DNA of 64,000 bases from Pontiellaceae bacterium B1224 (GTDB taxonomy: Bacteria; Verrucomicrobiota; Kiritimatiellia; Kiritimatiellales; Pontiellaceae): the NCBI GenBank assembly GCA_029432815.1, contig JAROBA010000032.1, positions 1 through 64,000 on the forward strand, written 5' to 3'. Below the pieces are notes generated by a model. That model had not been told where the DNA came from and searched no databases. It was given only the letters and a program-made list of their open reading frames with translations. This document shows, piece after piece, positions 59 to 60,717 of this stretch. Both the position numbers and the translations under genes were made by a program. The first letter of the stretch is position 1. Each line of letters opens with the position of its first letter.

Positions 59-1228
59 TCAAACCAATGAGGGTCGTTTTGGTAATGCTACGGACTGCTT
101 TCCGCGCATGACGAGGCCGCCGATGACGGCGGTGAAGGGGGCGACGGTGACGAGGCCGAAACTGCCGACCATGGTGTTGAGCACTTCGGCGGCGACATAG
201 TTCAGGTTGAAAACCTGGATGGCGGGGATGTCCTGACTGATGAACAGCATAAACATGAAGATGTAGGAGCTGGAATAGGCGAGCAGCAGCGTGGTGGTCA
301 TGGTGCCGATTACAGAGCGGCCGACGCGCAGGCCGGAGCGGATGTGTTCCATAAAATGAATTTCGGGATGTTTTAATTTTACCTCTTCCATCGATGCGGC
401 GATGTCCATGGCCAGATCCATCACGGCCCCGGATGCGGCGAGAAAGATGCTGGCAATAAAGATGGGGGTCAGCCGCAGGTGAGCAAACCCGCCGTGCAAT
501 AAATTCTCAGCATAGGGCCGAACCGCTCCGTGGATGTGGAAAAGTTTTCCAAACACGACGGCTAAAACGGCAGTGAGGGCCAGGCCGAGAAATGCGCCGG
601 CAAAGGTGACGAATCCTTTTCGGGTGAGCCCGCCGACCAGAAAGCTGATGGAGGCCGTGAGGCAGGCCACGACGCCGAGCGCAACCCAGATGGGGTCATA
701 GCCTTTGAGGAACAGGGGCAACATAATTTTCCAAATCATCAGCGTGGCGAAGGCAAAGGAGAGGATGGCTTTGAGTCCGGTGAGGCCCGCCACGGCGATT
801 AATGCGAGGGCAAAGAGGGAAATCAGCGCAATTTCGAGATTAATGCGATAGTGGCCGCGCGCTGTGCCTTGGTCCGGCTGGCCGTCGTCGGTGAGGAAAT
901 ACTGCACCAGCAGCTTGTCTCCTTTGCTGTAGACTTCGTCGCGTTCGAGGACGCCGATTAATTGATTTTGAACGGTGAGGGTCTGGCCTTTGAAAGGGCC
1001 TGCAAGCAACTCGACTTCCAACTGTTGGAAGCCGGTCTGGATGAGTCCGAAAACTTCGATATCTGAATCATCGGTTGCCAGCACAGCGCCGCGGTGCCGG
1101 TAAATATCGCGTCTGTTGTTTCCGGTATATTCAAACCCGGTTTTGATCTGCGTGAGAATCAGGCACAGCACTGTGAAAAGGAAAATGATGATGAGGTCTC
1201 TGCGCGTGGATGGATTCTTGAATTTCAT
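59..1228 (-). CDS. YibE/F family membrane protein
   Basis: The 389-residue product has one N-terminal membrane segment (about residues 11-29), a soluble region of about 100 residues containing the FQQLE pentapeptide encoded by a TTCCA palindrome, and then seven or eight hydrophobic segments from about residue 130 to the end. The conserved stretch around GGFAHLRLTPIFIASIFLA and SGAVMDLAMDIAASM is typical of the YibE/F family. Members are polytopic membrane proteins of poorly defined function, sometimes proposed as exporters. The start is the ATG at 1228; a further palindrome copy sits just upstream at 1234-1248. The reading direction is the same as the alkaline phosphatase gene upstream, about 80 bp away, but no functional link is evident. 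Confidence 0.85.
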   Translation of the reverse strand: MKFKNPSTRRDLIIIFLFTVLCLILTQIKTGFEYTGNNRRDIYRHRGAVLATDDSDIEVFGLIQTGFQQLEVELLAGPFKGQTLTVQNQLIGVLERDEVYSKGDKLLVQYFLTDDGQPDQGTARGHYRINLEIALISLFALALIAVAGLTGLKAILSFAFATLMIWKIMLPLFLKGYDPIWVALGVVACLTASISFLVGGLTRKGFVTFAGAFLGLALTAVLAVVFGKLFHIHGAVRPYAENLLHGGFAHLRLTPIFIASIFLAASGAVMDLAMDIAASMEEVKLKHPEIHFMEHIRSGLRVGRSVIGTMTTTLLLAYSSSYIFMFMLFISQDIPAIQVFNLNYVAAEVLNTMVGSFGLVTVAPFTAVIGGLVMRGKQSVALPKRPSLV

Positions 1229-1310
1229 ATTTTTTCCAAGGGTTGGAAATGTAAAAACGGCAGGGAACCGAGGCTCCCTGCCTGTTTAAGTGTAAATCCC
1301 GCAGTGCAGC

Positions 1311-2867
1311 TTAGTAAGGCAGGTTTCCGCCGGTATAATCCTGATCGACAACCGGGAGAGGCGCGGTGCGCATAGCCTGACCCAGGAATTTGGCAATGTC
1401 GGTGTTGTCGTAGAATCCGCCGAAACGGTACGCATCGAACCCAACCGCCATGACGGGAACGGGCACCGCAGTGTGCGAGGTGGAAGCCCAGAACAGGCCG
1501 GATTCCTGGTTCAGGAGATGTGTGCAGGTTACGGCGATGGCGCTGTAGCCGCCATAGATCGTGTAGTCTACATCGGTGTAACCGTCGAGATCATACCCAC
1601 TGGCGCGGCTGTCGGCTTTCACGCCACCGAATTCGCGGTCATAGGCTGCTTCGAGCTGTTCCTGCTGGTATTCCGTTAGATCCGTCCAAACCAAACCGAA
1701 GTTGTTGGAGATGGCGTCAATCATCTCGGCGTCGATGTTGCTGGATGCCGCGTCAACCCACGTGTGGCTGTTCTTATACGCCTTGATCACCTGGCGATTG
1801 AACAGGTCGTAGGAGATGTTCTGGCCATCGAGCGTTTCGAAGGCCGTTTCGTATTTGGTGCCTTTGTAGCCGATGCTCATGCCGCCGGTTTCATGGTCGC
1901 CGGTTACCACGATGAGGGTTTCATTCGGGTGGGCATAGTAGAATTCAAGTGCTTCACCAACCGCATCATCAAATGCAATGGTATCGGTGATGTTTGCTTT
2001 GGCATCGTTGGCATGGCCAGCCCAGTCGATCTTTCCGCCTTCAACCGAAATGAAGAAACCATCGGGGTCATTCTGCAGACGGTTGATCGCCGCTTCAGTG
2101 ATCTCGGCCAGGTTGAAGTTACCTTCCGGTGTATCCATGTGGTACGGCATGGCGTTGGAGTCGTAGGAGGTTGCAACGGAACATACCACTTTGCCGGAAA
2201 TATTTTCCAGATCGGCGATGCTGTTGACGAAGGTGTAGTCGTTGTTAGCGAAGGCGTCGCTCACGGTGATGCCACCTGCGTTATCAGAGCTGGTCAGGTA
2301 ACGGAACTGACCGCCACCGAAAAACTCGAATCCACTCAGAGCGGCCTGATAGCCAATCTCCGTGTAGTTGTTGCGGCTGTTTACTTTGGCATAGTACGAG
2401 GCCGGCGTGGCGTGCGGCAGGGATACGCTGGAGATGATGCCAACGGATTTACCCTGCTCGTGGGCGAGCTCGGCAATGCTTTTGTAGGCCATGTTTTTGT
2501 CGGTATTCAAGCCGATGATTCCGGCGCCGGTTTTGACACCGCAGGCAAAGGCTGTGCCGGCAGCTGCGGAGTCTGTAATCAAACGGGTATCCGAATAGGT
2601 TGTGGACATGCCGGTAATCGGCAGCATGTTCATATTCAGGACGCTGGCCTGCAGATTGATTGGATTATCCTCTCCGCCTGCCATTTGGCTGGCTTTATAG
2701 GCCTCGGCCGCCTGCATCTGAACGCTGGCCATGCCGTCGCCCAGGAAGAAAAATACATATTTTGCTCCGCTGGTTGCGCGGGTCGGACGTGCGTTTGCTA
2801 TATCTGCTGTAAACAGGGATGCGAGGGCGCAGCCCACGGCGGCAGTTTTGGTGAGTGTTGCTTTCAT
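1311..2867 (-). CDS. secreted alkaline phosphatase, PhoA superfamily
   Basis: A 518-residue phosphomonoesterase with an N-terminal signal peptide (residues 1-26, ending near ANA). Active-site elements of the alkaline phosphatase superfamily are visible: FFLGDGM near residue 43 (metal Asp), TDSAAAGTA with the nucleophile Ser at 100, GKIDWAGHAND (metal ligands), VTGDHETGG and a late STSHTAVPVPV with the final metal His. It should hydrolyse phosphate esters in the periplasm or outside the cell to supply phosphate. A good Shine-Dalgarno (AAGGAG on the minus strand) precedes the ATG. I saw no clear pho box. The family assignment is firm; the exact substrate is not known. Confidence 0.93.
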   Translation of the reverse strand: MKATLTKTAAVGCALASLFTADIANARPTRATSGAKYVFFFLGDGMASVQMQAAEAYKASQMAGGEDNPINLQASVLNMNMLPITGMSTTYSDTRLITDSAAAGTAFACGVKTGAGIIGLNTDKNMAYKSIAELAHEQGKSVGIISSVSLPHATPASYYAKVNSRNNYTEIGYQAALSGFEFFGGGQFRYLTSSDNAGGITVSDAFANNDYTFVNSIADLENISGKVVCSVATSYDSNAMPYHMDTPEGNFNLAEITEAAINRLQNDPDGFFISVEGGKIDWAGHANDAKANITDTIAFDDAVGEALEFYYAHPNETLIVVTGDHETGGMSIGYKGTKYETAFETLDGQNISYDLFNRQVIKAYKNSHTWVDAASSNIDAEMIDAISNNFGLVWTDLTEYQQEQLEAAYDREFGGVKADSRASGYDLDGYTDVDYTIYGGYSAIAVTCTHLLNQESGLFWASTSHTAVPVPVMAVGFDAYRFGGFYDNTDIAKFLGQAMRTAPLPVVDQDYTGGNLPY

Positions 2868-2926
2868 TGTCTATCTCCTTGTGTGGTTGGTTGTTGCTTA
2901 CGAACTAACAAAACGGCAGAACCGGA

Positions 2927-3973: not shown

Positions 3974-5409
3974 TGACTTCCCTTGAAACAGATGCGCGAC
4001 CCTTTGGCGGCTGGCGTGAGCTGATGCAGATTGCCTGGCCGTTGATCGTCAACTCCGGGACGTTTGCCGTGCTTAATTTCAGCGACCGCCTTTTTCTTTC
4101 CAATTATGGCGAGGCGGAGTTTCGCGCATCGTTGCCGGCGGGGATTTTGTTTTTCACCTTAGTGTGTGGCTTCATGGCGTTGGCAGGTTTTGTGAATACG
4201 TTTGTGGCCCAGATGTGGGGCGCCGGCGATAAAGAGGGTTGTGCGCGCGCCACAGCGCAGGGTTTTCTCTTTTCGCTGATTTCGATTCCGCTGATCATGC
4301 TGGTGGCTCCCGTAGGAATATGGATGTTGCGGCTGAGTGGGCACGGCCCGGAAATTCTGGCGTTGGAGGAGGAATATTTTAAGATTCTGATGTGGTGCGG
4401 CGGTGGCATGACGATGAGCTCGGCTCTGAGCAGTTTCTTTTCGGGTCGCGGTAAAACATCGGTCATCATGATCTGCAACATATTTGCAAACGGCCTCAAC
4501 GTACTGCTCAACTATCTGCTGATTTTCGGTGTCGGGATTTTTCCAGAGCTTGGAATTGCCGGGGCCGGCTGGGCCACCGTGATCGGTTCTTGGCTGAGCC
4601 CGCTGATTTTTGCACTGCTCTATTTTTCAAAACCGGTAAATGCAGAATTCAAAACCTTTAAAAATCTGCGGTTCGACCCGTGGCTGTTTAAACGTATGCT
4701 GCGCTTCGGCTTCCCTTCCGGTGTGCACTGGTTCCTGGATGTGGCCGCATTTACGGTTTTCGTGCTGCTGGTGGGCCGGCTCGGGCCGGTGGCGCATATT
4801 GCCAGTAATATTGCGCTGAGCATTAATCTCGTGGCCTTCATGCCGATGATCGGGATGGGCATTGCTGCTTCGATTCTGGTAGGGCAATACCTCGGCCGGA
4901 ATCAACCGCACTACGCCGAAAAAGTCGGTTGGCTGGCGATGAAGATCGGAATCGGGTACGTCGTCGTAACTGGTCTGACGTTTGTGCTTTTCCCCGCATT
5001 TTTCACCAATGTGTTCGGCAACGACGGCGGTTCAACAGTTCCTTACGATGAACTGCTGAAGACGGTTCGAGTTCTATTGGTCATGCTGGCGATCTGGGGG
5101 GCGGCCGATGCGATGGCGCTGGTATTGTCCGGCGCATTGAAAGGGGCGGGCGATACCCATTTTGTGATGTATTTTCAGTCGGCCGTTGCCTGGGGCATCC
5201 TGGTGGTTGGTCAATTGATTATTGTGGTGTGGCTTGAGCTGAATGTTTTCATCAGCTGGGCCTGGACCCTGGTCTACATCATTATTCTCGGAATCGGTTT
5301 TTTCCTGCGCTTCCGTTCCGGTCGCTGGAAAAATATCGACCTGCTGGACAAACGGGCCGAGGTTTTACTGGAGCCGGAAAACACCGAAGAGCTCGCCACC
5401 CGACTGTAA
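3973..5409 (+). CDS. MATE family efflux transporter
   Basis: The 478-residue product has about 12 hydrophobic segments in the two-lobed arrangement of MATE (multidrug and toxin extrusion) proteins, with the N-terminal core LMQIAWPLIVNSGTFAVLN and the second-lobe start LRFGFPSGVHWFLD. These transporters exchange drugs or cationic compounds for Na+ or H+ across the inner membrane. The length is normal for the family. The assigned ATG lacks a Shine-Dalgarno and is overlapped by a strong hairpin; the ATG at 4024 is the alternative. A palindrome copy at 4541 is read as FPELG. The gene ends at a palindrome-containing terminator shared with the convergent gene. Confidence 0.9.
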   Translation: MTSLETDARPFGGWRELMQIAWPLIVNSGTFAVLNFSDRLFLSNYGEAEFRASLPAGILFFTLVCGFMALAGFVNTFVAQMWGAGDKEGCARATAQGFLFSLISIPLIMLVAPVGIWMLRLSGHGPEILALEEEYFKILMWCGGGMTMSSALSSFFSGRGKTSVIMICNIFANGLNVLLNYLLIFGVGIFPELGIAGAGWATVIGSWLSPLIFALLYFSKPVNAEFKTFKNLRFDPWLFKRMLRFGFPSGVHWFLDVAAFTVFVLLVGRLGPVAHIASNIALSINLVAFMPMIGMGIAASILVGQYLGRNQPHYAEKVGWLAMKIGIGYVVVTGLTFVLFPAFFTNVFGNDGGSTVPYDELLKTVRVLLVMLAIWGAADAMALVLSGALKGAGDTHFVMYFQSAVAWGILVVGQLIIVVWLELNVFISWAWTLVYIIILGIGFFLRFRSGRWKNIDLLDKRAEVLLEPENTEELATRL

Positions 5410-5410
5410 A

Positions 5411-5443
5411 ATAAAAAAGGCGTTCCAAGGATTGGAACGCCTT
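5411..5443 (-). terminator. terminator whose stem is a TTCCA palindrome
   Basis: A perfect 12-bp stem, AAGGCGTTCCAA (5417-5428) with TTGGAACGCCTT (5432-5443), closes a GGA triloop. On the minus strand the stem runs into six T residues (5413-5418 read in reverse), so it should terminate the leftward transcript of the secreted coiled-coil protein. On the plus strand the T run is poor, giving weaker termination for the MATE gene. The stem centre is palindrome copy 5423-5437. Confidence 0.82.
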
Positions 5444-6039: not shown

Positions 6040-6148
6040 AATATTCTCATTCCTGTTTGGTTGTTTTTGAATGAACGGAACTTTATCCGCAGATTTAGCT
6101 GTGTACAGCTTTGATTTTTCCAATGTTTGGAAAGCCTGCGCGAAGTGA

Positions 6149-7465: not shown

Positions 7466-7531
7466 GAAGATGAGGCGAACCATAGTGTGCTGTACGCGGA
7501 AAGCAAACTTTCCAATGGTTGGAAAAAAAGC

Positions 7532-9462: not shown

Positions 9463-10179
9463 TTAATCGTTCGCGAGCCAGCCCCCGGTCGCCTGAATGG
9501 GTTCCATGGAGTGGGAGTTGGTGATCCAGATGGCAAGGGCTTTGGGAGTGAGTGTTCCATCGAGTTTAATTTCTGCGGCCATGCCGGTTTCTGCGGGTTG
9601 CAACGTGCTTTGCTTGAGGTCCAACGCAACAAAGCAGTGTTTCAGTGTGCGCCCCCGGTTTTCTCCTGATCTGACTTTGGTCATTTCCATTCCGCTCAGC
9701 GGCGCGATCCAGACCGTCATTTTTCCTGAAGGCTGGAAGTCGGGGGAGAACTGTATATGGACTATGCTTCCGTCAACGGTCGCTTTCAGTTTTCCGGGCT
9801 TTCCATTTCCAGGCTTTGGATGGAGCGAGCGCACGGCCTTTCCGTTGTTCACGAAGCAGGGGGTGTATACGGTGCGGCAGTTCCAATGTTTGGAATAGTT
9901 CTTTTGACGGGTGGTATATGCGGGAACGGCAAATCGGTCCGGCCAGCCGATATAGTCCCAGTAGTCGACATGAAAGGCGATCGGCACAAAATCGGTCCAG
10001 AGGCCGGGATGATTTTCCAATTCATTCAGTCGGCGTTCCGCCGGAGGGCAACTGCTGCATCCTTCCGAAGTGTAGAGCTCAATCAGGCTCGTTTGTTGAA
10101 TCGGGCTGGTGAAGGTTACGGGCGCGGCCACTAAGCCGGACGCAGTGAATAATAAGGGGATCAAACTAAAAGCTTTCAT
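9463..10179 (-). CDS. DUF1223 family secreted thioredoxin-fold protein
   Basis: The 238-residue product carries a signal peptide (MKAFSLIPLLFTASGLVAA) and the DUF1223 core: LIELYTSEGCSSCPPAE with a CxxC-like pair, followed by VPIAFHVDYWDYIGWPDRFA and YTPCFVNNGK. The fold is predicted thioredoxin-like and membership suggests redox activity in the periplasm, but no member's function is well established to my knowledge. A palindrome copy at 9881-9895 is read in the S-x-x-W frame (SKHWN), a near copy at 9807 in the P-x-x-G frame. It is convergent with rpsD and is transcribed away from pheT. Confidence 0.85.
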   Translation of the reverse strand: MKAFSLIPLLFTASGLVAAPVTFTSPIQQTSLIELYTSEGCSSCPPAERRLNELENHPGLWTDFVPIAFHVDYWDYIGWPDRFAVPAYTTRQKNYSKHWNCRTVYTPCFVNNGKAVRSLHPKPGNGKPGKLKATVDGSIVHIQFSPDFQPSGKMTVWIAPLSGMEMTKVRSGENRGRTLKHCFVALDLKQSTLQPAETGMAAEIKLDGTLTPKALAIWITNSHSMEPIQATGGWLAND

Positions 10180-10325: not shown

Positions 10326-12728
10326 ATGAAAGTACCAGTCAGTTGGCTGAAAGAATACGTTGATTTTGAAGACACCATTGAAGGCTTGTCCGACAAGCTG
10401 ACCTTTGCCGGTCTTGAGGTGGAGGCCATTGAAAAGATCGGGTCGGATTTCCCGGGCGTGGTCGTGGGCGAAATTCTAGAAATCGAACCGCATCCGGGGG
10501 CTGATAAGCTACGCCTCTGCACGGTGGAATACGGAGCCGAAGAAACCATGCGCGTGGTTTGCGGCGCTCCAAATGTGGAAGTCGGTGGGAAATATCCCTT
10601 TGCTCCGGTCGGCACAACCCTGCCGGGTGGCTTCACGCTGAAGAAAGCGAAGATCCGCGGCGAAGTTTCCATGGGCATGCTTTGCGCGAAAGACGAACTC
10701 GAGCTCGGCGAAGACCATTCCGGCCTGCTGGTGCTCGATGCGGATCTAAAACCGGGAACGCCGTTTGTCGATGTTTGGGGACAACCCGAAACCGTCATTG
10801 AACTCGAAATTACCCCGAATCGACCGGATTGGATTTCCATGATCGGCGTCGCGCGTGAAATGGCGACGCTGTACGGCACCGAGCTGAAGGTTCCAACCAT
10901 TGGAATTTCTGAAACCGAAAATGATGTAAACGAAGAAATCTCCATTCGTATCGACGACGAAGTTAAATGCCCGCGCTACACGGCTCGCATTTTGAAGGGC
11001 GCAAAAATTGGTCCGTCTCCGGAATGGATGCAGCAACGACTGGAAGCGGCAGGCATCCGCCCGATCAGCAACGTCGTGGATATCACGAATTATGTGATGT
11101 TAGAAACCGGACATCCGTTGCACGCGTTTGACGCAGCAACCGTTGCCGGAAAACAGATCATTGTCCGCACGGCCAAGGCGGGCGAAAAAATGAAGACGCT
11201 CGATGGACAGGACCGCGAACTGACGGCCGATATGCTGGTGATTGCCGATGCGGAAAAAGCCTCGGCCATTGGTGGTGTGATGGGCGGTGCCGATTCTGAG
11301 ATTACCGATGCAACGGAAACCATTCTGCTTGAGGCTGCGGCCTTCGAAACCTCGACCATTCGGCATACGGCTAAAAAGCTTGGGTTTCTGACCGACGCGG
11401 CCTACCGATTCCAGCGCGGCATCAACACCGATTCGGTCGAAATGGCCAGTCGTCGCGCGGCATCGCTGATGTGCGAGCTGGCTGGGGCCAAGCTCTGTGC
11501 GGGCGTCGTTGACGTTTATCCGGGCACCAAAGAACAGATCAAAATCCCATTCAGCTATAAACGTATCGAAAACATGATCGGTGCTGAAATTGCCGCCGAT
11601 CGCATGCGCGAAATTTTCCAAACCTTGGAAATCGGTCTCGAAGACGATAACGGCGAGACGGCTGTTGCTGTGGTGCCAAGCTTCCGGCTGGACCTCGAAC
11701 GTGAAGTGGATCTGGTCGAGGAAATCGCCCGTATTCATGGCGTGGACAATATTCCAACCAAAACACCGTTGGCGAAAGTGATTCCAACGGCGGACGATTC
11801 CCGCGTCCGCGCGGTTTCCAACCTTCGGAACCATCTGCAGGGTCTCGGCGTCAGCGAGATTCTGAATTACACGTTGGTCAGCAATCCATTGCTTGATCTT
11901 TTCAATAAAGAGAATAAGGAAGAGCGCGAAGAACTGCCGCACCCCATTTCGGTGGATCAGTCGGTCATGCGTACTTCGCTGATCCCGCAGCTGGTTGAAA
12001 GCCTCGGTCGCAATCATTCGCGTCAGGTGAGCGAAGCCTGCTTCTATGAACTGGGCCGCACATTCAATCGCATTAAGGGTGGAACGGTGCAGACCGAAAT
12101 GGTTTCGCTGGGTATGATGGGCCCGGTCGGCCGTGGGCTGCTCGAAAAACGCGCGGCGGTTTCCGATGAAGAAATGTTTGTCTGGATGAAGGGCCTCGTT
12201 GAAAAGCTCTTTTCCTCTCAGCATATTTTGGCCGAATTCGCGGAACAGGATGCGCCTGAATTTGAAGGCGGGAAAGCGGTTTCCATTCTGCTCGATGGCG
12301 AAGTGGTGGGCTGCATGGGCTTGGTGAATAAAACGGCCCGTGCCGAATGGCGCCTGACCGGTCCGGTGGCTGCGGCGGAAATTAAACTGGAAGCTTTGCT
12401 GAAAAAGGCCTTCGTCATTTCAAAAACCGAAGAGCTCGCAACCTTCCCGTCGATGAGCCGAGATATTGCGCTGGTGCTTGATGAATCGGTGAAGCACGAA
12501 GAGGTGCAGGCGTTGATTCGCAAGGCCAATCCGAAAGACCTTGAATCGTTTGGCCTGTTCGATGTCTATCAGGGCAAAGGCATTGAGAAAGGGAAGAAGA
12601 GTCTGGCTTATACCTTTGTCTATCGCTCGGCGAAACAAACGCTGACGGATAAGAAGGTTAACAAAGCACATCAGAAGCTGAGCGACTTTCTTTGTAAACA
12701 GTTGAGCGCGAGCTTGCGGGATGGTTAA
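10326..12728 (+). CDS. pheT: phenylalanine--tRNA ligase beta subunit
   Basis: The 800-residue protein has the normal bacterial PheT domain order: EMAP/OB-fold tRNA-binding domain (residues 39-150), B3/B4 editing domain (about 210-380, with GGVMGGADSEITD), B5 domain (about 400-475), catalytic-like core, and the C-terminal FDX-ACB anticodon-binding domain (from TFPSMSRDIALVLDE). With PheS it charges tRNA-Phe. pheS is not adjacent, an uncommon split; upstream is an unrelated gene. Palindrome copies at 10891 (VPTIG) and 11616 (FQTLE) lie in poorly conserved parts of the protein. The gene has its own promoter and its end overlaps the longest frame of the following protease gene. Confidence 0.97.
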   Translation: MKVPVSWLKEYVDFEDTIEGLSDKLTFAGLEVEAIEKIGSDFPGVVVGEILEIEPHPGADKLRLCTVEYGAEETMRVVCGAPNVEVGGKYPFAPVGTTLPGGFTLKKAKIRGEVSMGMLCAKDELELGEDHSGLLVLDADLKPGTPFVDVWGQPETVIELEITPNRPDWISMIGVAREMATLYGTELKVPTIGISETENDVNEEISIRIDDEVKCPRYTARILKGAKIGPSPEWMQQRLEAAGIRPISNVVDITNYVMLETGHPLHAFDAATVAGKQIIVRTAKAGEKMKTLDGQDRELTADMLVIADAEKASAIGGVMGGADSEITDATETILLEAAAFETSTIRHTAKKLGFLTDAAYRFQRGINTDSVEMASRRAASLMCELAGAKLCAGVVDVYPGTKEQIKIPFSYKRIENMIGAEIAADRMREIFQTLEIGLEDDNGETAVAVVPSFRLDLEREVDLVEEIARIHGVDNIPTKTPLAKVIPTADDSRVRAVSNLRNHLQGLGVSEILNYTLVSNPLLDLFNKENKEEREELPHPISVDQSVMRTSLIPQLVESLGRNHSRQVSEACFYELGRTFNRIKGGTVQTEMVSLGMMGPVGRGLLEKRAAVSDEEMFVWMKGLVEKLFSSQHILAEFAEQDAPEFEGGKAVSILLDGEVVGCMGLVNKTARAEWRLTGPVAAAEIKLEALLKKAFVISKTEELATFPSMSRDIALVLDESVKHEEVQALIRKANPKDLESFGLFDVYQGKGIEKGKKSLAYTFVYRSAKQTLTDKKVNKAHQKLSDFLCKQLSASLRDG

Positions 12729-12762: not shown

Positions 12763-14700
12763 ATGAAGAGACGTATCTATCGTTTATCTGTGATTGGCGT
12801 TTTATTTGCGGCAGGTATTTTCTTTGGCCTTCGCGAGCGGCCGCTTCCGGCTAACGAGCATGTTACAGTTCCGCCGGAAAGCGGTGAATCTTTCCAGGGT
12901 TTGGAAGAACCGACTCATCAGCGCATCGTTTCCGCTGGGAACGATGTGAACGCGGAGCTTCCGCTTCAACTGTCGGCAATCCCGGCGAGCAGATTACGGG
13001 AGCAACTGCTGAAGCTTTCCGAAAATCTGCAGGAAGAGGCGCTTCAATATCTGGCGGAGCGGCCGGAATTGCTGAACGACCTTACCTCGTTGCGGGTCGG
13101 CCCCTCCGGGAAATTTTATTATGTCTGTATACTGGGGGCTGAGAAGTCTATTCCTCGTAATGACACTGGCCTTCAACCCCGTATTGCCGCAGCAGAAGTT
13201 CTCGGTGCATCAGTTGCAATTTCGAGCCCGCCGGTTCGGCACAGCCGGCCGGGTTGCAGTAATGTTTTGTATCTTGATTTTAACGGAGAGGTTGTCTCCG
13301 GCACGATTTGGAATACGGACTCGGAATATGGATCGGTCGCATCCTGGGATTGCCGTCCTTACGATACCGATGGAAATGAAACGACTTTCAGTTCCTCTGA
13401 GCAGGCTGATATCATTGAAATCTGGGAACGCGTTGCTGAAGATTATGCACCGTTCGATGTGGATGTAACGACGGAAGCTCCTTTGCTCTGGACGGATACT
13501 ACCGGCCATGCGCTGATTACTCCGGATGTCGATAAAAACGGCGTGCATTGTCCTCATTACGGCGCGGGCGGGCTTGCTTATTTGGAGATATTCGGAGAGA
13601 ACGAAAACACGTTTTATTCACCCGCCTGGGTGCTGGATTATGATTATTCGCGGGCTGCGAGTATTGTAGCGGAAGCGGTTTCCCATGAACTCGGTCATAA
13701 TCTGGGATTGCATCATGATGGAACCTCGAGCGATGAATACTACAGCGGACATCCTGGCGTGACCGAACCCAGCTGGGGGCCGATTATGGGAACGGGGTAT
13801 AACCGCAACATTTCCCAGTGGAGCAAAGGCGAGTATTATAATTCTGATGAGGATGAGAATGATCTGGCCATTCTGTCGGATAGGTTAGACTACCGAGAGG
13901 ACGATGCCGGCGACGATAATTCTTCAGCAACGCTGCTCACCATTATCGGCGGAGAAACGGTTTCGCAGAACGGTGTCATCGAACGTACTGACGATCCGGA
14001 CGTGTATCATTTCACGACGTTGGCTGGCGAAATAACCATTTCAGTCGATCCATACCGCTCAGCATCCGGCACCTGGGGTGGCAATCTGGACCTTGAGCTG
14101 CGGCTCTATAATGAAGCCGGTGATTTGCTGGAGAGCGACAATCCCTCCAGCGTGGCTTCCGCTTCGATTGTACGGGTTGTTACGGCCGGGAAATACTACG
14201 TGCACATTATTCCGGTCGGAGCGGGAAGTCCCATGTCGAGTTCACCTACCGGCTACACCTCGTACGGAAGTCTGGGGCAGTATTTCATGAGTGGTACGGT
14301 TTCGGGCGATGGGGATGCGGATAAACTCCCGACCTATTGGGAGGAACTGTATTTCGGCAATGCCGATCTCTATGGCGCATCGGACGATCCTGATCACGAC
14401 GGATCGGATAATTATTCCGAGTTCATCGCCGGCACGCTTCCTGACAGTGCGGCCTCCGTTTTTGCGGTAACCAGCTCCAGTGCCACGCTGACGGACGGAG
14501 TGCTGTATGTCTTAAACTGGTCGACTGTTGAGGGCCGCGTCTATAGCGTGAACTACACTCCGAATCTTCAATATACCGCCTTCACGGGATTCGCGGATGG
14601 CACCAACTTACCGCACACGGTCAACAGTTACACGGATGCGGTGGATCATGCCGAAACGAAGGGCTTCTATCGTGTCGATGTAAGATTGGCTCCTGAGTAG
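12763..14700 (+). CDS. secreted metzincin-type zinc metalloprotease
   Basis: I start at the ATG at 12763 (MKRRIYRLSVIG, a signal-anchor); a longer frame begins at 12721 inside pheT. The protein of 645 residues contains HELGHNLGLHHDG (about residues 308-320), the HExxHxxGxxH zinc site of metzincins, within a catalytic domain that begins near NVLYLDFNGE and includes the helix IIEIWERVAEDYAPFDVDV. Following it are a beta-sandwich pre-peptidase C-terminal-like domain (DDPDVYHFTTLAGEITISVD) and an Asp-rich, calcium-binding type repeat ending in SEFIAGT, a signature common in Kiritimatiellota/Verrucomicrobiota secreted proteins. It probably digests extracellular protein. The palindrome at 12892 gives FQGLE in the linker. 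Confidence 0.88.
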   Translation: MKRRIYRLSVIGVLFAAGIFFGLRERPLPANEHVTVPPESGESFQGLEEPTHQRIVSAGNDVNAELPLQLSAIPASRLREQLLKLSENLQEEALQYLAERPELLNDLTSLRVGPSGKFYYVCILGAEKSIPRNDTGLQPRIAAAEVLGASVAISSPPVRHSRPGCSNVLYLDFNGEVVSGTIWNTDSEYGSVASWDCRPYDTDGNETTFSSSEQADIIEIWERVAEDYAPFDVDVTTEAPLLWTDTTGHALITPDVDKNGVHCPHYGAGGLAYLEIFGENENTFYSPAWVLDYDYSRAASIVAEAVSHELGHNLGLHHDGTSSDEYYSGHPGVTEPSWGPIMGTGYNRNISQWSKGEYYNSDEDENDLAILSDRLDYREDDAGDDNSSATLLTIIGGETVSQNGVIERTDDPDVYHFTTLAGEITISVDPYRSASGTWGGNLDLELRLYNEAGDLLESDNPSSVASASIVRVVTAGKYYVHIIPVGAGSPMSSSPTGYTSYGSLGQYFMSGTVSGDGDADKLPTYWEELYFGNADLYGASDDPDHDGSDNYSEFIAGTLPDSAASVFAVTSSSATLTDGVLYVLNWSTVEGRVYSVNYTPNLQYTAFTGFADGTNLPHTVNSYTDAVDHAETKGFYRVDVRLAPE

Positions 14701-14774: not shown

Positions 14775-15143
14775 ATGAAAGCTCTCACCCTAGTATTGAG
14801 CAGTGTTCTGACCGTTTCTGCATTCGGTCTTGTTTTGCTGCGCCGTCCGGCTCCGGTCGTTGCTGAAGCGCAACCGGTTGTTCAGGAAACGGAATTCCAG
14901 GCCTTGGAAAAACCTGTTCCTTCGGTAACTCCCATTGAAGAGGTGGGGGAGACGATTGAAGAGCCCGTAGCGGAACCTGTCGAAGTTTTTGTTGAAGAGG
15001 GTGTGGTTGAGGTAGTGGAGCCTCCGGTTTTTAAGCCGGTGCAAACGCTGGAAGAACGCGGCGATGCCATGCTTTTCGAGGCACAGGCCTTGTTGGATAC
15101 TCCGTTTGATCAGTCCATCACCATGCCGTTTGATAATCTGTAA
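14775..15143 (+). CDS. small Glu/Val/Pro-rich envelope protein, unknown
   Basis: A 122-residue product starting at the ATG at 14775. It has a hydrophobic N-terminus (MKALTLVLSSVLTVSAFGLV) that is a signal peptide or membrane anchor, then a low-complexity region rich in Glu, Val and Pro (residues 28-95), and ends MPFDNL. No domain is recognised. The palindrome at 14895-14909 encodes FQALE within the low-complexity part. The gene follows the protease by 74 bp; a short hairpin (TGCGG/CCGCA around CAGGATTTTCCTG) lies between them. Possibly a spacer-like periplasmic protein; no function proposed. Confidence 0.6.
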   Translation: MKALTLVLSSVLTVSAFGLVLLRRPAPVVAEAQPVVQETEFQALEKPVPSVTPIEEVGETIEEPVAEPVEVFVEEGVVEVVEPPVFKPVQTLEERGDAMLFEAQALLDTPFDQSITMPFDNL

Positions 15144-16289: not shown

Positions 16290-16403
16290 AGGCTCACGTT
16301 AGCGCTGTTCTGCCATTCATTTCAATCCCGGACGGTGTAATCTTTGCGTAAAAAAGGGTTTCCAGTCCTTGGAAGGTGTGCGGACGGGCGATATAGTGGG
16401 CTG

Positions 16404-25255: not shown

Positions 25256-25422
25256 AAGAGAATGCTATGCCATTCGTCCCGAAACGCAATCTCAAATGCC
25301 TCTCTTTTAAACGATCGGTGCGACGAGGTTGGAGATGTTTATCAGATTGTCTGCCGCTTTTTTGTTCCAATGGCTGGAACAACGGGGATACACTCTTTTG
25401 ATCATTGGAGAGGCAGAAACGT

Positions 25423-27377: not shown

Positions 27378-27595
27378 TCGGTTTTCCATGAAGGTTCCAA
27401 TGTTTGGAAAAAACCGCAAGCCGGCCTCGTTATTAACCAAAGTCGTTCGGAGCCACCGGTGCCACGGCTCTTCGCTCGATTATGAATGCATGTGTATGGT
27501 TGCGGGGTTATAAGGCGGTTTTGCGCCTGGCGAATGAGGATGATTGAACGAATTTGTTGATACGGCATCTAAATAAGAATTAACGTGAGGTTCGT

Positions 27596-31596: not shown

Positions 31597-31695
31597 ATGT
31601 AGTAAAAGTTCCAGACATTGGAAAATGTTAGTGCAATCGGTGGGGGGGGTAGGTAAAAACAGGTTTTCGATTTCAATATAAGGGAGTAGTTATAA

Positions 31696-48336: not shown

Positions 48337-48410
48337 AACTGCTCGCTGCCTTCTGACGCGGTAACGTCCGCCTGCTCTGACGCAATCTTTCCAATCCTTG
48401 GAAGAATGTA

Positions 48411-48696: not shown

Positions 48697-51666
48697 ATGA
48701 TTTATCGCATTGAAATCGGATTAAAAGACGGTGTGCCGGACGCACGCGGTCGCGGCGTAATTGATCGGGCGCAGGGTGCCCTGAAAATGAGCATCGGCGA
48801 ATGCCGTACGCGCGACGTGTATAAAGTCGTTGCGAACATCGATGCCGACAAAGCCGCTGAAGTGCAGCAGACTTTTGCTGATCCGGTGGTGGCGGAATCC
48901 GCATTGGACCGACTTCCAGCCCCTGGAAATTTTGACTGGATGCTCGAAATCGGCTTTAAACCGGGCGTTACCGATAACGTGGGACGCACCGCCCGCGGCG
49001 CACTGAAAGATGTCGTCGGCCGCGAACTCGATTGGGAAGAACAGGTTTATACCTGCATTCAGTATTTCCTCTCCGGCGATCTGAGCCGCGAGGATGTCGA
49101 GCACCTCGGCAAAGACCTGCTGGCCAATACCCTGATTCAGACGATCTCTGTTTTCTCGAAAGACGAATGGCTGGCCGCCGCGCCCGATATTTCCGCCCCG
49201 ATTTTCGACGATCATCCCGAAATCAAGGTTAACGTGATTGAGTTGCCCGATGATGACGCGGCGCTGATGAAGATTTCCTCCGAGGGCATTCTGTCGCTCT
49301 CACTCGAGGAAATGCACACTATCCGCGACCACTACCTGCGTGATGACGTGAAAGCGCACCGCGCCGAGTTGGATCTGCCGGAATGGCCGACCGATATCGA
49401 ACTCGAATGCATTGCCCAGACCTGGTCGGAGCACTGTTCGCATAAGGTATTTTCCGGAACGATCAATTATAAGGATGAAGAAACCGGCGAAGCAGAGACG
49501 ATTCACTCGCTCTACAAAACCTACGTGAAGGCCTCCACCAAAAAGATTGAAGAGTCGATCGATTGGCTAATCTCGGTTTTCACCGACAACGCCGGCATCG
49601 TGAAATTCAATGAAGACATCCATCTGGTTTATAAAGTGGAAACTCACAACTCGCCGTCGGCGCTCGATCCGTTTGGCGGATCGATGACCGGGATCGTCGG
49701 CGTGAACCGCGACCCGCTCGGCACGGGCATGGGCGCGGCGTTGGTTTCCAATGTCTGGGGCTACTGTCTCGGTTCGCCGTTCTACGACAAAGCGATGCCG
49801 GAAGGCCTGATGCATCCGCGCCGTATTCGTGACGGTGTGCACGAAGGTGTGATTGCCGGCGGCAACGAGTCAGGGATTCCGTACAGCCGCGGCTTTGAAT
49901 GTTTCGACGAACGCTTCCTCGGAAAGCCGCTGGTCTATTGCGGCACGATGGGCACCATTCCGGTTACGGTTACCGGCGGCCCGTCCGAGCGCAAAGAAAT
50001 TGAGATTGGCGACTGGACCGTGATGTGCGGCGGACGCATTGGTAAAGACGGTATCCATGGTGCAACCTTCTCTTCGGAAGAACTCCGCACTGAATCGCCG
50101 GCGCAGGCGGTGCAGATCGGCGATCCGCTGACCCAGCGCAAACTCTACGAATTTATTCTCGAAGCCCGCGACCTCGGCCTGTTCCGCTGCATCACCGATA
50201 ACGGAGCGGGCGGCATTTCCTGTTCGTTCGGTGAGATGGGCAAATATTCCGGCGGCTGCGAATGCGACCTCGCCGGCGCTCCGCTGAAATACGAAGGTCT
50301 CCAGCCTTGGGAAGTGTTGGTTTCCGAAGCGCAGGAGCGCATGACGCTCGCCGTTCAGCCTGAATGCCGCGAGCAGTTTGAAGCACTCGCCAAACAGCGC
50401 GACGTCGAAGTCGCCTTTATGGGTAAGTACAACGATTCCGGCTACTTCACCGTCAAGCAGGACGGCAAAGTGATCGCCAGCCTCGACATGGATTTCCTTT
50501 ACGAAACCGGTTGCCCGACGCTCGTGATGCCCGGCACCTGGAAAAAGCCGGTGGTGGAAGCGCCGAAGGTTGAAGCGCAGACGGACTATTCCGATACGCT
50601 TGTGAAACTGATGGGCGATCTGAACCTCTGTTCCCGCGAATACAAGAGCCGCATCTATGACGGCGAGGTGAAAGGCCTCTCCGTTGTGAAGCCTTACGTT
50701 GGTGTGAATGCCGACGTTCCGTCCGATGCCACGGTGATGCGCGTTGAATATAACAACGACCGCGGCGCGGTGCTGGCCGAAGGCATCAACCCCTGGTATT
50801 CTGATATCGATACGTACGACATGACCACATCGGTCATCGACGAAGCGGTTCGCCGCGTGATCGCCGTGGGTGGCGACATGAATCGCATTGCGATTCTCGA
50901 CAACTATTGCTGGCCGGATCCGGTCGAGTCGGACAAAACGCCCGACGGAGCATATAAAATGGCGCAGCTTGTTCGTTCGAACAAAGCGCTGTATGACTTA
51001 ACAACTGCGTATAAAACGCCAGCAGTCTCAGGTAAAGACTCCTGTAAGAACGACTCCACACGGGGTGGAAAGAAAATATCAATACCGCCGACGCTGCTTG
51101 TCTCCTCTATTGGGCAGATCGACGATGTGAAAAAAGCGGTTACCATGCCGCTGAAGAAAGCCGGCGACGTACTTTACGTTATCGGTGAAACGAAAGAGGA
51201 ACTCGGGGCTTCTGCTTACTTCCGCCTTTTGGCGGAGGAGCAGGGTGCCCCGATGAATTACGGAGGAACCGTTCCGGCGGTGGATGCGGACAAAGCTCTC
51301 GAAATCTATGCGGCCATGAACAAGGCCACGGATGCCGGACTGCTGAAATCTGCAACAACGCCTTCGAAGGGCGGGCTGGCGATTGCGCTTTCGCTGATCA
51401 CCATCGGTGGTCAGCTGGGAGCAACGGTTGATCTGTCCGGTTTGGCAGCGGATGCCGCCACGGCCCTCTTCTCCGAATCCAACAGCCGCTTCATTGTTTC
51501 AGTGGCCCCTGAAAAGGCAGCCGAACTCGAAGCCCTCTTCGCTGGACTTCCGATCACGAAGATCGGAGTCGTGACCGAAGAGAAGGTTTTGAAGGTTGAG
51601 GGTGCAGTTGAAGTTGTGCTCGAAGATTTGGTTCAGCCCTTCAAAGCAACACTTCACGGCGTGTAG
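48697..51666 (+). CDS. purL: phosphoribosylformylglycinamidine synthase, PurS-PurL fusion
   Basis: The start is the ATG at 48697; a longer TTG frame from 48664 is unlikely. The 989-residue enzyme makes FGAM in purine synthesis. Residues 1-180 contain two PurS-like repeats: MIYRIEIGLKDGVPDARG and FDWMLEIGFKPGVTDNVG, the second ending DLLANTLIQTISVF (PurS: LLANTVIE). Then come the two PurM-like halves: TWSEHCSHKVFSGTI, VETHNSPSALDPFGGSMTGI, NRDPLGTGMGA, GGRIGKDGIHGATFSS, GAGGISCSFGEMG. No glutaminase domain follows (it ends VQPFKATLHGV), so a separate PurQ is needed. Palindrome 48914 is read LPAPG between the two repeats. Confidence 0.95.
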   Translation: MIYRIEIGLKDGVPDARGRGVIDRAQGALKMSIGECRTRDVYKVVANIDADKAAEVQQTFADPVVAESALDRLPAPGNFDWMLEIGFKPGVTDNVGRTARGALKDVVGRELDWEEQVYTCIQYFLSGDLSREDVEHLGKDLLANTLIQTISVFSKDEWLAAAPDISAPIFDDHPEIKVNVIELPDDDAALMKISSEGILSLSLEEMHTIRDHYLRDDVKAHRAELDLPEWPTDIELECIAQTWSEHCSHKVFSGTINYKDEETGEAETIHSLYKTYVKASTKKIEESIDWLISVFTDNAGIVKFNEDIHLVYKVETHNSPSALDPFGGSMTGIVGVNRDPLGTGMGAALVSNVWGYCLGSPFYDKAMPEGLMHPRRIRDGVHEGVIAGGNESGIPYSRGFECFDERFLGKPLVYCGTMGTIPVTVTGGPSERKEIEIGDWTVMCGGRIGKDGIHGATFSSEELRTESPAQAVQIGDPLTQRKLYEFILEARDLGLFRCITDNGAGGISCSFGEMGKYSGGCECDLAGAPLKYEGLQPWEVLVSEAQERMTLAVQPECREQFEALAKQRDVEVAFMGKYNDSGYFTVKQDGKVIASLDMDFLYETGCPTLVMPGTWKKPVVEAPKVEAQTDYSDTLVKLMGDLNLCSREYKSRIYDGEVKGLSVVKPYVGVNADVPSDATVMRVEYNNDRGAVLAEGINPWYSDIDTYDMTTSVIDEAVRRVIAVGGDMNRIAILDNYCWPDPVESDKTPDGAYKMAQLVRSNKALYDLTTAYKTPAVSGKDSCKNDSTRGGKKISIPPTLLVSSIGQIDDVKKAVTMPLKKAGDVLYVIGETKEELGASAYFRLLAEEQGAPMNYGGTVPAVDADKALEIYAAMNKATDAGLLKSATTPSKGGLAIALSLITIGGQLGATVDLSGLAADAATALFSESNSRFIVSVAPEKAAELEALFAGLPITKIGVVTEEKVLKVEGAVEVVLEDLVQPFKATLHGV

Positions 51667-51717: not shown

Positions 51718-51727
51718 AAGGAGATGG

Positions 51728-54001
51728 ATGGACGCCGACTTTTCTTTAGAGACCCAAATAGAAAAGCAGGGCACTCCGGTTGGGGTGCTTTCGCTTTTGT
51801 CGCTGTCGCCGGCGCGGTTTGCAAAAAACTATTTCTATGCCGGGACGACCGATCCGGTGCATTGCCTGCGGGTGGAGCTTGAATATGGCGGTGCGCGGAT
51901 TCTGCCCGGCCACCGTTCGCTCTTTGTTGGTGAAGGTGCGCGGAAGGTGCGGCGCGACCGCGATGCAGAGAAGACGCTGCTTGCACTGCTCGACCTTCCT
52001 CAATTACAAAAACTGACAAAAGTCTACCATTGGATCGATGCGTCCGATCCGCGCAGTCACTGGAAAACATGTGCTTCGCAGCAGGAGTGGCTGACGTTTG
52101 TTGAGCAGATGCCGATCCTGCTGGAACCGCAGGGCTGGCGGATCGAAATGGATCCGTCGTTTGAGCTTGCGGTCCATTCGCCGGATAGCTGGTATGTCGA
52201 TCTGGAGGAAACGGCGGGAGGAACCTTTGCGGCGAAGGTCGGCTTCGAGCTGTCGAACCGGCGCATCAATATTCTGCCGTTCCTGCTGGAGCGGCTGCGC
52301 GGTGGAAAGCCCCTGGATTTTCTGTTGCTTGATGATGGCCGCAGGGTGGTCATTCCACGAGAACGCATCGAACTGCTGACGGCTTCGTTGCTGGAGCTGT
52401 TCGATAAAGAGGCGGTGACGGGCGACGGCGGATCGATTGAAATTCCATGGGTGCGTGCGATGGAGCTGGCAAAGTTCCAGGCCTTGGAAGATTTTAAGTC
52501 GAAGCTGCCGGTTGCACTGAAGGAAAAGGCAGAGCGACTTGCGTTGGTAACGGCGGCGCCGAAAGTCCGCAAACCGCGGACCCTGAAGGCCGAGTTGCGC
52601 GACTATCAGCGGGAGGGCCTGAATTGGCTGCAGCTGCTGCGTGAGGCCGGATTCGGTGCGGTGCTGGCTGATGACATGGGGCTGGGTAAAACGGTTCAGG
52701 CGCTGGCGCATATTCTGGTGGAAAAGAGTGCGGGGCGGGTGGATGCGCCGTGCCTGATTGTGGCACCGACGAGTGTGCTCTACAACTGGGAGGCGGAAAC
52801 CAAAAAGTTTGCGCCGTCGCTGAACATCCTCGTTTCCCATGGCTCTGACCGCGCCGACCATTTCGAGGACTTTGCGAAGTATGACCTGATCGTCACGTCC
52901 TATCCGCTGCTGGCGCGCGACGGCGAGGAATTGCTGAAGCATCGCTTTCATCTGCTGATTCTCGACGAGGCGCAGTTTATCCGCAACCACAGGACGATCG
53001 CCGCGCGCGTTGTCCGCCTGTTCGATGCACACCAGCGCATTGCGCTTACCGGCACGCCGCTGGAAAATAATCTCGATGAACTGTGGTCGCTCTTTTCTTT
53101 TGTGATGCCCGGCCTGCTTGGCAGTCACGGCGTCTTTCGGAAATTATTCCGCGTGCCGATCGAGAAGGCGGGACATCCGGTTGCTCGCCGCGTACTGGCC
53201 CGTCGGATTGCGCCCTTTGTGTTGCGCCGTACCAAAGATGAAGTGGCCACGGAACTGCCGCCTAAAACGGAAATGATACAGCGGATCGAACTGACGGTTG
53301 CACAGAAGGAACTTTACGAAACGGTCCGCGCCGCTTCCGAAGACCAGGTGCGCGAAGCTGTGAAAATCAAGGGGCTGGCCCGTTCGCACATCATCGTGCT
53401 CGACGCCCTGTTGAAGATGCGGCAAGTCTGCTGCCATCCGCAGCTGCTGAAATTGGAGGCGGCAAAGGGCGTGGTCGAATCCGCTAAGCTCGATGCGCTC
53501 CGTGAAATGCTGAATGAAATGATTCCTGAAGGTCGCCGGGTGCTGATCTTTTCCCAGTTCACCAGCATGCTTAAGCTGATTGAGGCGATGCTGAACGAGC
53601 AGGGTGTGGATTTTGTGAAGATCACCGGAAGTACGAAGGATCGCAAAACGCCTGTTGCCGATTTCCAGGCGAGCAAGATTCCCGTTTTTCTCATCAGTCT
53701 CAAAGCGGGGGGTACGGGGCTGAATCTCACCGCTGCTGATACGGTTATTCATTTTGATCCGTGGTGGAATCCCGCTGCTGAGAGCCAGGCCACCGACCGC
53801 GCCTATCGCATCGGGCAGGATAAGCCCGTCTTTGTCTACAAGTTCATCGCTTCCGGCACGGTTGAAGAAACCATTCTCGCTATGCAGGAAAAGAAAAAGG
53901 ATCTGATCGGCGGCCTGCTTGATGACCAGAAGGAGGCCCTCTCCAAATGGGGCGAAGAGGATTTGATGGATCTCTTTAAACCGCTGGGCCAAGGAGCGTA
54001 G
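51728..54001 (+). CDS. SNF2-family ATPase/helicase
   Basis: The 757-residue protein is a bacterial SNF2 helicase-like DNA translocase. An N-terminal region of about 280 residues lacks a SWIM finger in this window's reading. The ATPase core has DDMGLGKT (residues 315-322), APTSVLYNWEAE, DEAQ (413-416, IIRNHRTIAA-like context), ALTGTPLENNLDELWSLF, and the second half FSQFTSMLKLIEAML, SLKAGGTGLNLTAADTVI, and ATDRAYRIGQDKPV. Such proteins remodel protein-DNA complexes or aid repair. The start at 51728 follows AAGGAG closely. The palindrome at 52475 gives FQALE upstream of the ATPase. Short frames follow immediately. Confidence 0.93.
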   Translation: MDADFSLETQIEKQGTPVGVLSLLSLSPARFAKNYFYAGTTDPVHCLRVELEYGGARILPGHRSLFVGEGARKVRRDRDAEKTLLALLDLPQLQKLTKVYHWIDASDPRSHWKTCASQQEWLTFVEQMPILLEPQGWRIEMDPSFELAVHSPDSWYVDLEETAGGTFAAKVGFELSNRRINILPFLLERLRGGKPLDFLLLDDGRRVVIPRERIELLTASLLELFDKEAVTGDGGSIEIPWVRAMELAKFQALEDFKSKLPVALKEKAERLALVTAAPKVRKPRTLKAELRDYQREGLNWLQLLREAGFGAVLADDMGLGKTVQALAHILVEKSAGRVDAPCLIVAPTSVLYNWEAETKKFAPSLNILVSHGSDRADHFEDFAKYDLIVTSYPLLARDGEELLKHRFHLLILDEAQFIRNHRTIAARVVRLFDAHQRIALTGTPLENNLDELWSLFSFVMPGLLGSHGVFRKLFRVPIEKAGHPVARRVLARRIAPFVLRRTKDEVATELPPKTEMIQRIELTVAQKELYETVRAASEDQVREAVKIKGLARSHIIVLDALLKMRQVCCHPQLLKLEAAKGVVESAKLDALREMLNEMIPEGRRVLIFSQFTSMLKLIEAMLNEQGVDFVKITGSTKDRKTPVADFQASKIPVFLISLKAGGTGLNLTAADTVIHFDPWWNPAAESQATDRAYRIGQDKPVFVYKFIASGTVEETILAMQEKKKDLIGGLLDDQKEALSKWGEEDLMDLFKPLGQGA

Positions 54002-60637: not shown

Positions 60638-60658
60638 AGCCGCGTTTGCTTCAACATG

Positions 60659-60696
60659 AAAAAAGCCCGCCCGAAACTTCGGGACGGGCTTTTTCA
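60659..60696. terminator. bidirectional terminator between the giant gene and htpG
   Basis: AAAAAGCCCG and CGGGCTTTTT enclose an inner CCGAA/TTCGG-like stem, with A-runs and T-runs on both sides so that it can stop transcripts from either direction. Palindrome copy 60699-60713 lies right against it. Confidence 0.85.
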
Positions 60697-60717
60697 TCTT
60701 CCAATCATTGGAAAAAT

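Follow-up and report, generated by a model that had tools for sequence, protein, structure and literature searches.

A strict 15-bp palindrome repeated throughout a Pontiellaceae genome looks like a docking site for a DNA-packaging or regulatory protein

We examined a 64-kb window, the whole stretch of 64,000 nucleotides from Pontiellaceae bacterium B1224 (contig JAROBA010000032.1), which carries pheT, htpG and open reading frames (ORFs) for a MATE transporter and an SNF2-type helicase. Scattered over its genes and gaps is an interrupted palindrome, TTCCA-N5-TGGAA (TTCCANNNNNTGGAA). Exact copies numbered 34 and spanned positions 1016-60713, the same 34 that an earlier sequence-only reading had counted as far above chance; 100 dinucleotide shuffles of the window gave a mean of 0.09 sites and a maximum of 2. 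Allowing one mismatch yielded 56 matches including the 34 exact ones (shuffle mean 2.91); the near-misses already reported are present, at 22 rather than about 17. Mechanically called ORFs of 100 amino acids or more contained 26 of the 34 sites, and 8 lay between ORFs, which agrees with the spread over genes and gaps described before, but not with the split of 24 and 10. The exact matches are listed below, with strand undefined (.) for all; the underlying list held 36 sites, two of them beyond base 64000. G numbers denote related genomes aligned with the window, and a site is called kept where all ten arm bases are identical.

1016..1030 (.), site TTCCAACTGTTGGAA: inside an ORF; centre T, the sole non-G/C centre of the 34
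1234..1248 (.), site TTCCAAGGGTTGGAA: between ORFs
4541..4555 (.), site TTCCAGAGCTTGGAA: within the MATE transporter ORF; kept in G016
5423..5437 (.), site TTCCAAGGATTGGAA: between ORFs; 9/10 arm bases in G016
6118..6132 (.), site TTCCAATGTTTGGAA: between convergent ORFs
7510..7524 (.), site TTCCAATGGTTGGAA: 9/10 arm bases in G016
9881..9895 (.), site TTCCAATGTTTGGAA: kept in G016 and G008
10891..10905 (.), site TTCCAACCATTGGAA in pheT: kept in G016 and G008 with the spacer changed; none in G003, G004, G013
11616..11630 (.), site TTCCAAACCTTGGAA in pheT: kept in G016 and G008; none in G003, G004, G013
12892..12906 (.), site TTCCAGGGTTTGGAA: exact match
14895..14909 (.), site TTCCAGGCCTTGGAA: exact match
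16360..16374 (.), site TTCCAGTCCTTGGAA: exact match
16713..16727 (.), site TTCCAGGCCTTGGAA: exact match
21066..21080 (.), site TTCCAAAGGGTGGAA: the sole site of the 34 without C or T at position 10
21993..22007 (.), site TTCCAAAGTTTGGAA: not kept in G016 or G027
24455..24469 (.), site TTCCAATCGTTGGAA: 9/10 arm bases in G016, 6/10 in G027
25365..25379 (.), site TTCCAATGGCTGGAA: between divergent ORFs; kept in G016
27223..27237 (.), site TTCCAGTGCCTGGAA: 9/10 arm bases in G027, 8/10 in G016, 7/10 in G003
27395..27409 (.), site TTCCAATGTTTGGAA: between ORFs
31609..31623 (.), site TTCCAGACATTGGAA: between ORFs; 9/10 arm bases in G027
36682..36696 (.), site TTCCAAACCTTGGAA: none in G003
37200..37214 (.), site TTCCAATGATTGGAA: none in G003
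38449..38463 (.), site TTCCAATGTCTGGAA: exact match
39579..39593 (.), site TTCCAATGTCTGGAA: kept in G008; 9/10 arm bases in G027
39820..39834 (.), site TTCCAGGCTTTGGAA: 8/10 arm bases in G008
40905..40919 (.), site TTCCAGGCATTGGAA: kept in G008
44887..44901 (.), site TTCCAATCATTGGAA: exact match
45790..45804 (.), site TTCCAATCATTGGAA: none in G003
46416..46430 (.), site TTCCAATGATTGGAA: none in G003
46563..46577 (.), site TTCCAAGGTCTGGAA: none in G003
48389..48403 (.), site TTCCAATCCTTGGAA: between ORFs
48914..48928 (.), site TTCCAGCCCCTGGAA: not kept in G016, G008, G027, G021, G003
52475..52489 (.), site TTCCAGGCCTTGGAA: within the SNF2-type helicase ORF
60699..60713 (.), site TTCCAATCATTGGAA: between convergent ORFs, beside htpG

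The arms of the motif hold 4 G/C per 10 bases, and its spacer follows rules of its own. Position 6 was A or G (R) in all 34 window sites and position 10 was C or T (Y) in 33, both as noted earlier; the centre (position 8), a feature absent from that note, was C or G (S) in 33. Over 108 sites of the same genome (G000), the consensus read T-rich flank, TTCCA, R, N, C/G (102/108), N, Y, TGGAA, A-rich flank, giving a fuller motif with a G/C centre, t-TTCCA-R-N-S-N-Y-TGGAA-a. When spacers of 0-12 were scanned in 197,842 bases of this genome, only the 5-bp spacer was enriched, with 110 sites against 0-2 for every other length. Near-misses in these bases differed mainly at positions 1/15 (T to A or C) and 5/11 (A to G), and positions 2-4 and 12-14 were almost invariant among them. 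We infer that such graded mismatch tolerance is the pattern of a protein dimer whose half-sites would lie one helix turn apart. The core, CCA-N5-TGG, is the sequence recognized by PflMI.

The window is not special within its genome. Over 5,377,058 bases (204 contigs) we counted 2,237 sites and 3 of the reversed pattern, and the resulting density of 0.42 per kb (416 per Mb), against 0.53 per kb in the window, is far from background. Neither outcome named beforehand as counting against the motif was seen, namely near-background counts elsewhere in the genome and equal enrichment of other spacers. In 227,843 bases, 92 of 130 sites lay inside mechanical ORFs. Coding sequence carried 0.45 sites per kb, tandem gaps 1.92, divergent gaps 1.81 and convergent gaps 1.34; gaps are thus richer than genes, with little promoter preference. 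A second ORF set placed 93 of the 130 inside, where 116 would be expected if sites were uniform (p ~2e-8). Sites in ORFs fell into the three reading frames 38, 37 and 18 times, and inter-site distances fit a random (exponential) spread. Enrichment throughout the genome, in genes and gaps, supports the earlier hypothesis of a palindrome resembling the highly iterated palindromes (HIPs).

Conservation was assessed by aligning 67.5 kb of contig C130 (the window and its end) and 10 kb of C142 with stretches of relatives; sites were picked by their presence in the window's genome, a bias toward apparent loss in relatives, and the control was the same ten-base geometry at random positions, wholly identical. 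In the nearest relatives, both motif-rich, 10 of 20 sites were kept in G016 (5 of 11 in the window part; control 12.3%) and 8 of 16 in G008 (5 of 7; control 14.4%), and arms were more alike than flanks (identity 0.865 vs 0.769 in G016, 0.912 vs 0.729 in G008). The conservation of positions that the sequence-only reading had proposed to look for was seen in these two genomes. Figures for G027, labelled as the same genus (3/15, control 8.8%), and G021 (1/6, 9.8%) were little above control. No site was kept in motif-poor G003 (0/18, control 7.5%), where the order of arm and flank identity was reversed (0.578 vs 0.676), or in G018 (0/7, 4.6%), G013 (0/2, 3.3%) and G004 (0/3, 8.6%), the last itself moderately motif-rich with 670 sites in 8.7 Mb. 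Arms were kept while the spacer varied within its rules, for example from AACCA to GCCTT at 10891. Most alignments to relatives without a site contain no gap there (15/18 in G003), from which we conclude that sites are gained or lost through substitution rather than insertion.

Across 155 genomes sampled from the phylum, enrichment was confined to the window's class, Kiritimatiellia, which includes Pontiella. With a strict pattern (TTCCARNSNYTGGAA), 20 of the 51 genomes in the class were enriched (at least 17 strict sites; G054 was the weakest, with 17) and the remaining 31 had 0-9, whereas none of the 104 genomes outside was enriched (0-4 each). Counts of the looser pattern within the window's genus ran from 5 to 2,297 (drafts of 1.1 to 8.7 Mb, 59 to 97% complete), and gain or loss of the motif therefore seems fast. 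No alternate palindrome of comparable strength was found in 80 kb each of G003 and G004. In G108, from another family of the phylum, the reversed strict motif had 52 copies, compared with 0-2 in the other genomes listed, which may mean that this genome has a different iterated palindrome.

Helical phasing is the decisive new finding and points to a DNA-binding protein. In stretches not chosen for arrays, we searched up to 130 bp either side of each exact site for matches with 8/10 arm bases or more; one third would be expected in phase, since 38 of the 116 positions qualify, and pairs of exact sites are counted from both ends. Matches in phase with 10.5 bp were 74/75 in G048, 18/18 in G028, 40/52 in G037 and 32/39 in G032, a genome labelled as belonging to the window's order. 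For adjacent exact spacings of up to 130 bp, Rayleigh R at 10.5 bp was 0.95 in G028 (n = 5), G032 (n = 7) and G048 (n = 17), 0.88 in G037 (n = 12) and 0.83 in G134 (n = 30). Pooled over these five genomes, spacings within one array not being independent, the commonest values were 31 (26 times), 22 (14), 30 (9), 32 (8), 42 (5) and 21 (4), with five further spacings between 61 and 84 and a best common period of 10.31. A scan of named genome contigs for pairs 31/32 bp apart returned at least 117 stretches; in these, the 35 adjacent spacings other than the pair itself fit a 10.37-bp period (R 0.80). The 80 titles listed name Lentisphaerae, Verrucomicrobia or Verrucomicrobiota, Kiritimatiellae and similar labels, Pontiellaceae, Spartobacteria or uncultured sources, apart from one 3-kb contig labelled Firmicutes.

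In these other lineages the members of an array, spaced by whole helix turns (21-22, 30-32 or 42 bp), share one helix face. Between sites the sequence changes from one unit to the next and has A/T-rich edges, and the arrays are therefore not tandem duplications. In 242,190 bases of G134 (matches of at least 9/10), six of eight clusters read 22-(30/31)n-22, with 30-31 occurring once to four times and the opening 22 once replaced by 21; the remaining two clusters comprised two and three sites. We read this order as a putative rule for assembling a nucleoprotein body with ends. Four contigs of G049 (C43, C44, C45 and C68; L314, L315, L316 and L320) end within ~400 bp of an array; assemblies may thus break at arrays, which drafts may then undercount. 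In the few-site genome G054, phased arrays at 1332-1378 and 12182-12228 of L373 (G054:C28:1-20000) flank an 11-kb island in which we recognized by eye type III restriction-modification genes, a ParB-like gene, a D12-type adenine methylase and a HARE-HTH protein. A motif-rich donor may be the source of this island and of its bordering arrays.

When array neighbours were compared across genomes, pheS recurred in G049, G052, G057 and two named loci. This gene was located in 27 of 29 genomes. A site with at least 9/10 arm bases lay within 130 bp upstream of its start in 10 of 10 motif-rich genomes, which are not independent (five of one genus, three of one order), and in 0 of 17 motif-poor genomes (41 sites or fewer), with 8/10 matches in G047 and G055. 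The pheS of the window's genome (contig C149, outside the window) has sites 14, 43 and 86 bp from the start, that of G050 has five sites 21 bp apart, and that of G048 has one site only, at 9/10.

Two IMG/VR contigs, L205 (3034-3164) and L206 (2786-2946), carry phased arrays of 4 and 6 exact sites. Both arrays lie 0.6-0.8 kb upstream of a terminase large-subunit gene, from which a single short ORF separates them, and a portal gene follows the terminase; the terminase and portal genes are PHROG-supported. The viral scan for phased pairs gave 12 stretches at 31/32 bp and 6 at 21/22 bp, with L205 and L206 in both, and an out-of-phase control, run with six spacings (35-40 bp) rather than two, yielded 7 stretches, only 1 of which fits the R-S-Y rule. 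Because of this control, and because some phased matches (L414, L415) break the rule, only L205 and L206 count as phage evidence. They suggest that phages of these hosts may use the same candidate protein. On L206, degenerate sites appeared by eye to extend the 31/21-bp rhythm past the exact ones. A further viral contig, L422, has six unphased sites at 7607-7846, with spacers AACTT or AAGTT, 36-60 bp apart.

The thousands of copies of this palindrome look like docking sites for a DNA-packaging or regulatory protein in a little-studied bacterial group. At a probability of roughly 0.6, we interpret it as the dimer site of a class-specific DNA-binding protein that would be a global, nucleoid-type organiser or regulator. 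The evidence points to a dimeric, often cooperatively assembling protein rather than to a methylase mark or an uptake sequence. One dimer would occupy each 15-bp palindrome (about 19 bp with the T/A flanks), and outside the window's clade dimers would assemble side by side on one helix face, where neighbouring dimers may make contact with one another or with a common core, bending or wrapping the DNA in the manner of Lrp-type proteins. The region upstream of pheS is a candidate for a conserved anchor target. In the window's lineage each dimer probably acts alone, since the sites are spread singly and without detectable phasing; there the protein may act without assembly, or the sites may have changed role. 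A site for a nucleoid-type protein was among the hypotheses of the sequence-only reading, and it gains support from the helical phasing in other lineages and from the graded mismatch tolerance.

Several results weigh against this interpretation. The window's own clade is unphased (19/59 matches in phase in its genome, 6/17 in G016, 8/18 in G008 and 1/3 in G027; R 0.32 in its genome and 0.11 in five clade relatives, 14 spacings each), so the array argument rests on other lineages. G134 alone fits a period of 9.0 bp (R 0.95) better than one of 10.5 bp, because its spacings are nearly all 21-22 and 30-31. The conservation samples are small (20, 16, 15, 6 and 18 sites), and half of the sites are not exactly kept in the nearest relatives. 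Sites in the window's genome are not promoter-specific, as the gap densities given above show. For 12 16S copies from motif-rich genomes, the 600 bp upstream held no site of at least 9/10, with only 201-287 bp of upstream sequence for three of the copies, and Fis-like control of rRNA was rejected on this result; farther upstream, there is a 9/10 site at 699 bp in G030 and an exact one at 836 bp in G031. Finally, the binding protein was not found, and none of the families searched (Lrp, ParB and N6/N4 methylase) clearly tracks the motif.

A search for a palindrome-binding protein or methylase had been suggested earlier; run with Lrp, ParB_N, PF01555 and DNA-binding seeds, it gave no candidate that clearly tracks the motif. 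Lrp/AsnC was attractive as a binder for its spacing rule and was rejected. PF01037 occurs in 15/15 motif-rich and 11/13 motif-poor genomes (G013 and G043, which lack it, are both motif-poor, and the G045 protein is distant), motif-rich genomes share the motif but differ in the recognition helix of this protein, and motif-poor G003 and G018 carry nearly the same Lrp as the window's genus, with a helix as close to those of motif-rich genomes as these are to one another. Its presence alone is compatible with the motif; its recognition helix is not. An Lrp/AsnC-family protein was seen in 26 of 28 genomes, exactly one in 23 (G000:C142:17155-17379 and relatives L232-L256), and most of these proteins share a very conserved C-terminal tail. 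A ParB paralogue was likewise rejected, ParB_N occurring in all 28 genomes, as one copy in 21, with both motif-rich and motif-poor genomes among the 7 multi-copy ones. PF01555 (N6/N4 methylase) exceeded the cut-off in 13/18 motif-rich and 5/10 motif-poor genomes, which is no consistent association; it had no match in motif-rich G031, G104 and G191 (98, 94 and 91% complete) and matched only below the cut-off in G008 and G030. Clustering of ORFs at the arrays of several genomes revealed no recurring DNA-binding protein among the matches listed, with pheS as the best recurring target; the top neighbour cluster (9 sources) was inflated by translated array sequence and left out of the count. Home-made DNA-binding seeds compared with 2.16 Mb, mostly of motif-rich genomes, matched 43 ORFs without a clear candidate.

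Known systems offer partial parallels. ParB-, Noc- and KorB-type proteins use palindromic chromosome sites, tens rather than thousands, and the KorB site has a G/C centre as here; the present motif differs in its thousands of copies, and no extra ParB gene tracks it. Fis and H-NS have many chromosome-wide sites and bind cooperatively where these are helically phased, but their sites are degenerate and AT-rich, whereas here a strict ten-base palindrome occurs in one class, with no site close to the 16S copies examined. For H-NS, assembly at helically phased sites is described in PMC5418058. Lrp/AsnC (feast/famine) proteins such as Ss-LrpB are described in PMC2995911 and PMC4046817: their dimers bind imperfect palindromes of 13-17 bp, the centres of clustered sites lie two or three helical turns apart, and three dimers take up about 100 bp of wrapped DNA. 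Ss-LrpB is found on isolated sites as well as on several sites at regular intervals (PMC4046817). The arrays, outside the window's clade only, consist of palindromes of this size with the same centre-to-centre spacing (PMC2995911). Lrp sites are degenerate with an AT-rich centre, however, whereas this motif has strict arms and C/G at the centre in 102/108 sites, and the Lrp of these genomes is found both where the motif is present and where it is absent, and its recognition helix is not constant. By analogy, the mechanism would work like Lrp-type assembly, a likeness that does not identify the protein as Lrp.

The closest published genome-wide palindromes we found are HIP1 and the alternate HIPs of cyanobacteria, which PMC4390886 describes as GC-rich at about 1000-2000 per Mb. 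The present motif resembles them as a very high-copy palindrome far above chance both inside and between genes, one that is maintained within a clade yet almost missing from some of its genomes. It differs in its longer, gapped 10-base recognition, its lower density of 416 copies per Mb, its arms of 4/10 G/C, its G/C-centre rule and its phased arrays in other lineages, and no linked methylase was found (one family, PF01555, searched). In the literature searched, which lacks most subscription journals, we found neither the literal motif strings nor a paper on Kiritimatiellota together with a palindrome.

Two rivals survive best, each of them improbable in our estimation. In one, as proposed for cyanobacterial HIP1, an orphan DNA methylase, possibly with methyl-directed repair, creates and keeps the sites. 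It would fit the lack of phasing in the window's clade, the somewhat commoner PF01555 in motif-rich genomes, and a core that is the restriction sequence of PflMI. It would also fit the genome-wide density, the genic sites, the sharp differences in count within a genus and the maintenance between species, comparable with HIP1 in PMC4390886. Yet methylation does not predict helix-turn spacings elsewhere and gives no reason for the G/C centre or the pheS anchor, and PF01555 is missing from the three motif-rich genomes named above (C5, D12, type I and Eco57I-type families were not searched). The sequence-only reading chose none of its four hypotheses; the HIP-like and nucleoid-type ones are now supported, and a methylase target as the main explanation is less so.

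The other is an ordinary transcription factor with a large regulon, genic sites being weak or non-functional by-products. It would account for the conserved placement upstream of pheS, for divergent gaps 1.4-2.3 times richer than convergent ones in G016, G048, G032 and G052 (small counts; the G052 stretches were chosen for arrays), and for the many arrays that lie shortly before a possible start codon (a heuristic over 220 bp ahead, among the matches listed). For Lrp-type factors, operators with several phased sites are typical (PMC2995911). Such a regulon is hard to reconcile with 2,237 sites in one genome, with the 92/130 inside ORFs, with genic sites among those kept between species, and with 1.34 sites per kb in convergent gaps. 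A DNA-uptake or other recombination-bias sequence spread by molecular drive would suit the high copy number, the sites in genes and gaps, the sharp differences between relatives and the two arrays flanking a foreign-looking defence island in motif-poor G054, but it is very improbable, as phased arrays have no role in that model and palindromy also speaks against it, classical uptake sequences being, to our knowledge, not palindromic. RNA hairpins or mobile repeats of the repetitive extragenic palindrome (REP) type, as opposed to protein sites, are suggested by self-complementarity over 6-7 bp and by several contigs ending at arrays, as repeats cause, and are equally remote, given a ~10.4-10.5 bp spacing that is a property of B-DNA, sites in convergent gaps, gapless alignments to site-less relatives that imply origin by substitution, and no gathering-score Rfam match in 5 loci (60,662 bases).

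Returning to the class-specific dimer-binding protein, we put forward a more detailed picture only tentatively and regard it as rather doubtful. In this picture, the class would possess a previously undescribed chromatin protein of strict sequence specificity, whose dimers follow a fixed helical grammar (22-bp caps, a body of 30-32 bp) with nucleosome-like wrapping of up to about 150-180 bp; the array code would have decayed in Pontiella to thousands of genic single sites, and phages of the group would carry the same arrays ahead of their packaging genes.

If this is true, a whole class marks its chromosome with a strict, readable code that serves a DNA-organising protein, and wrapped units would be mappable from sequence alone. 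The presence of phased arrays in some lineages and of unphased single sites in their sisters would make it possible to study how a nucleoid system shifts from one way of assembling to another. What HIP-type palindromes do is not settled, and the phasing described here would provide a direct mechanistic handle on it.

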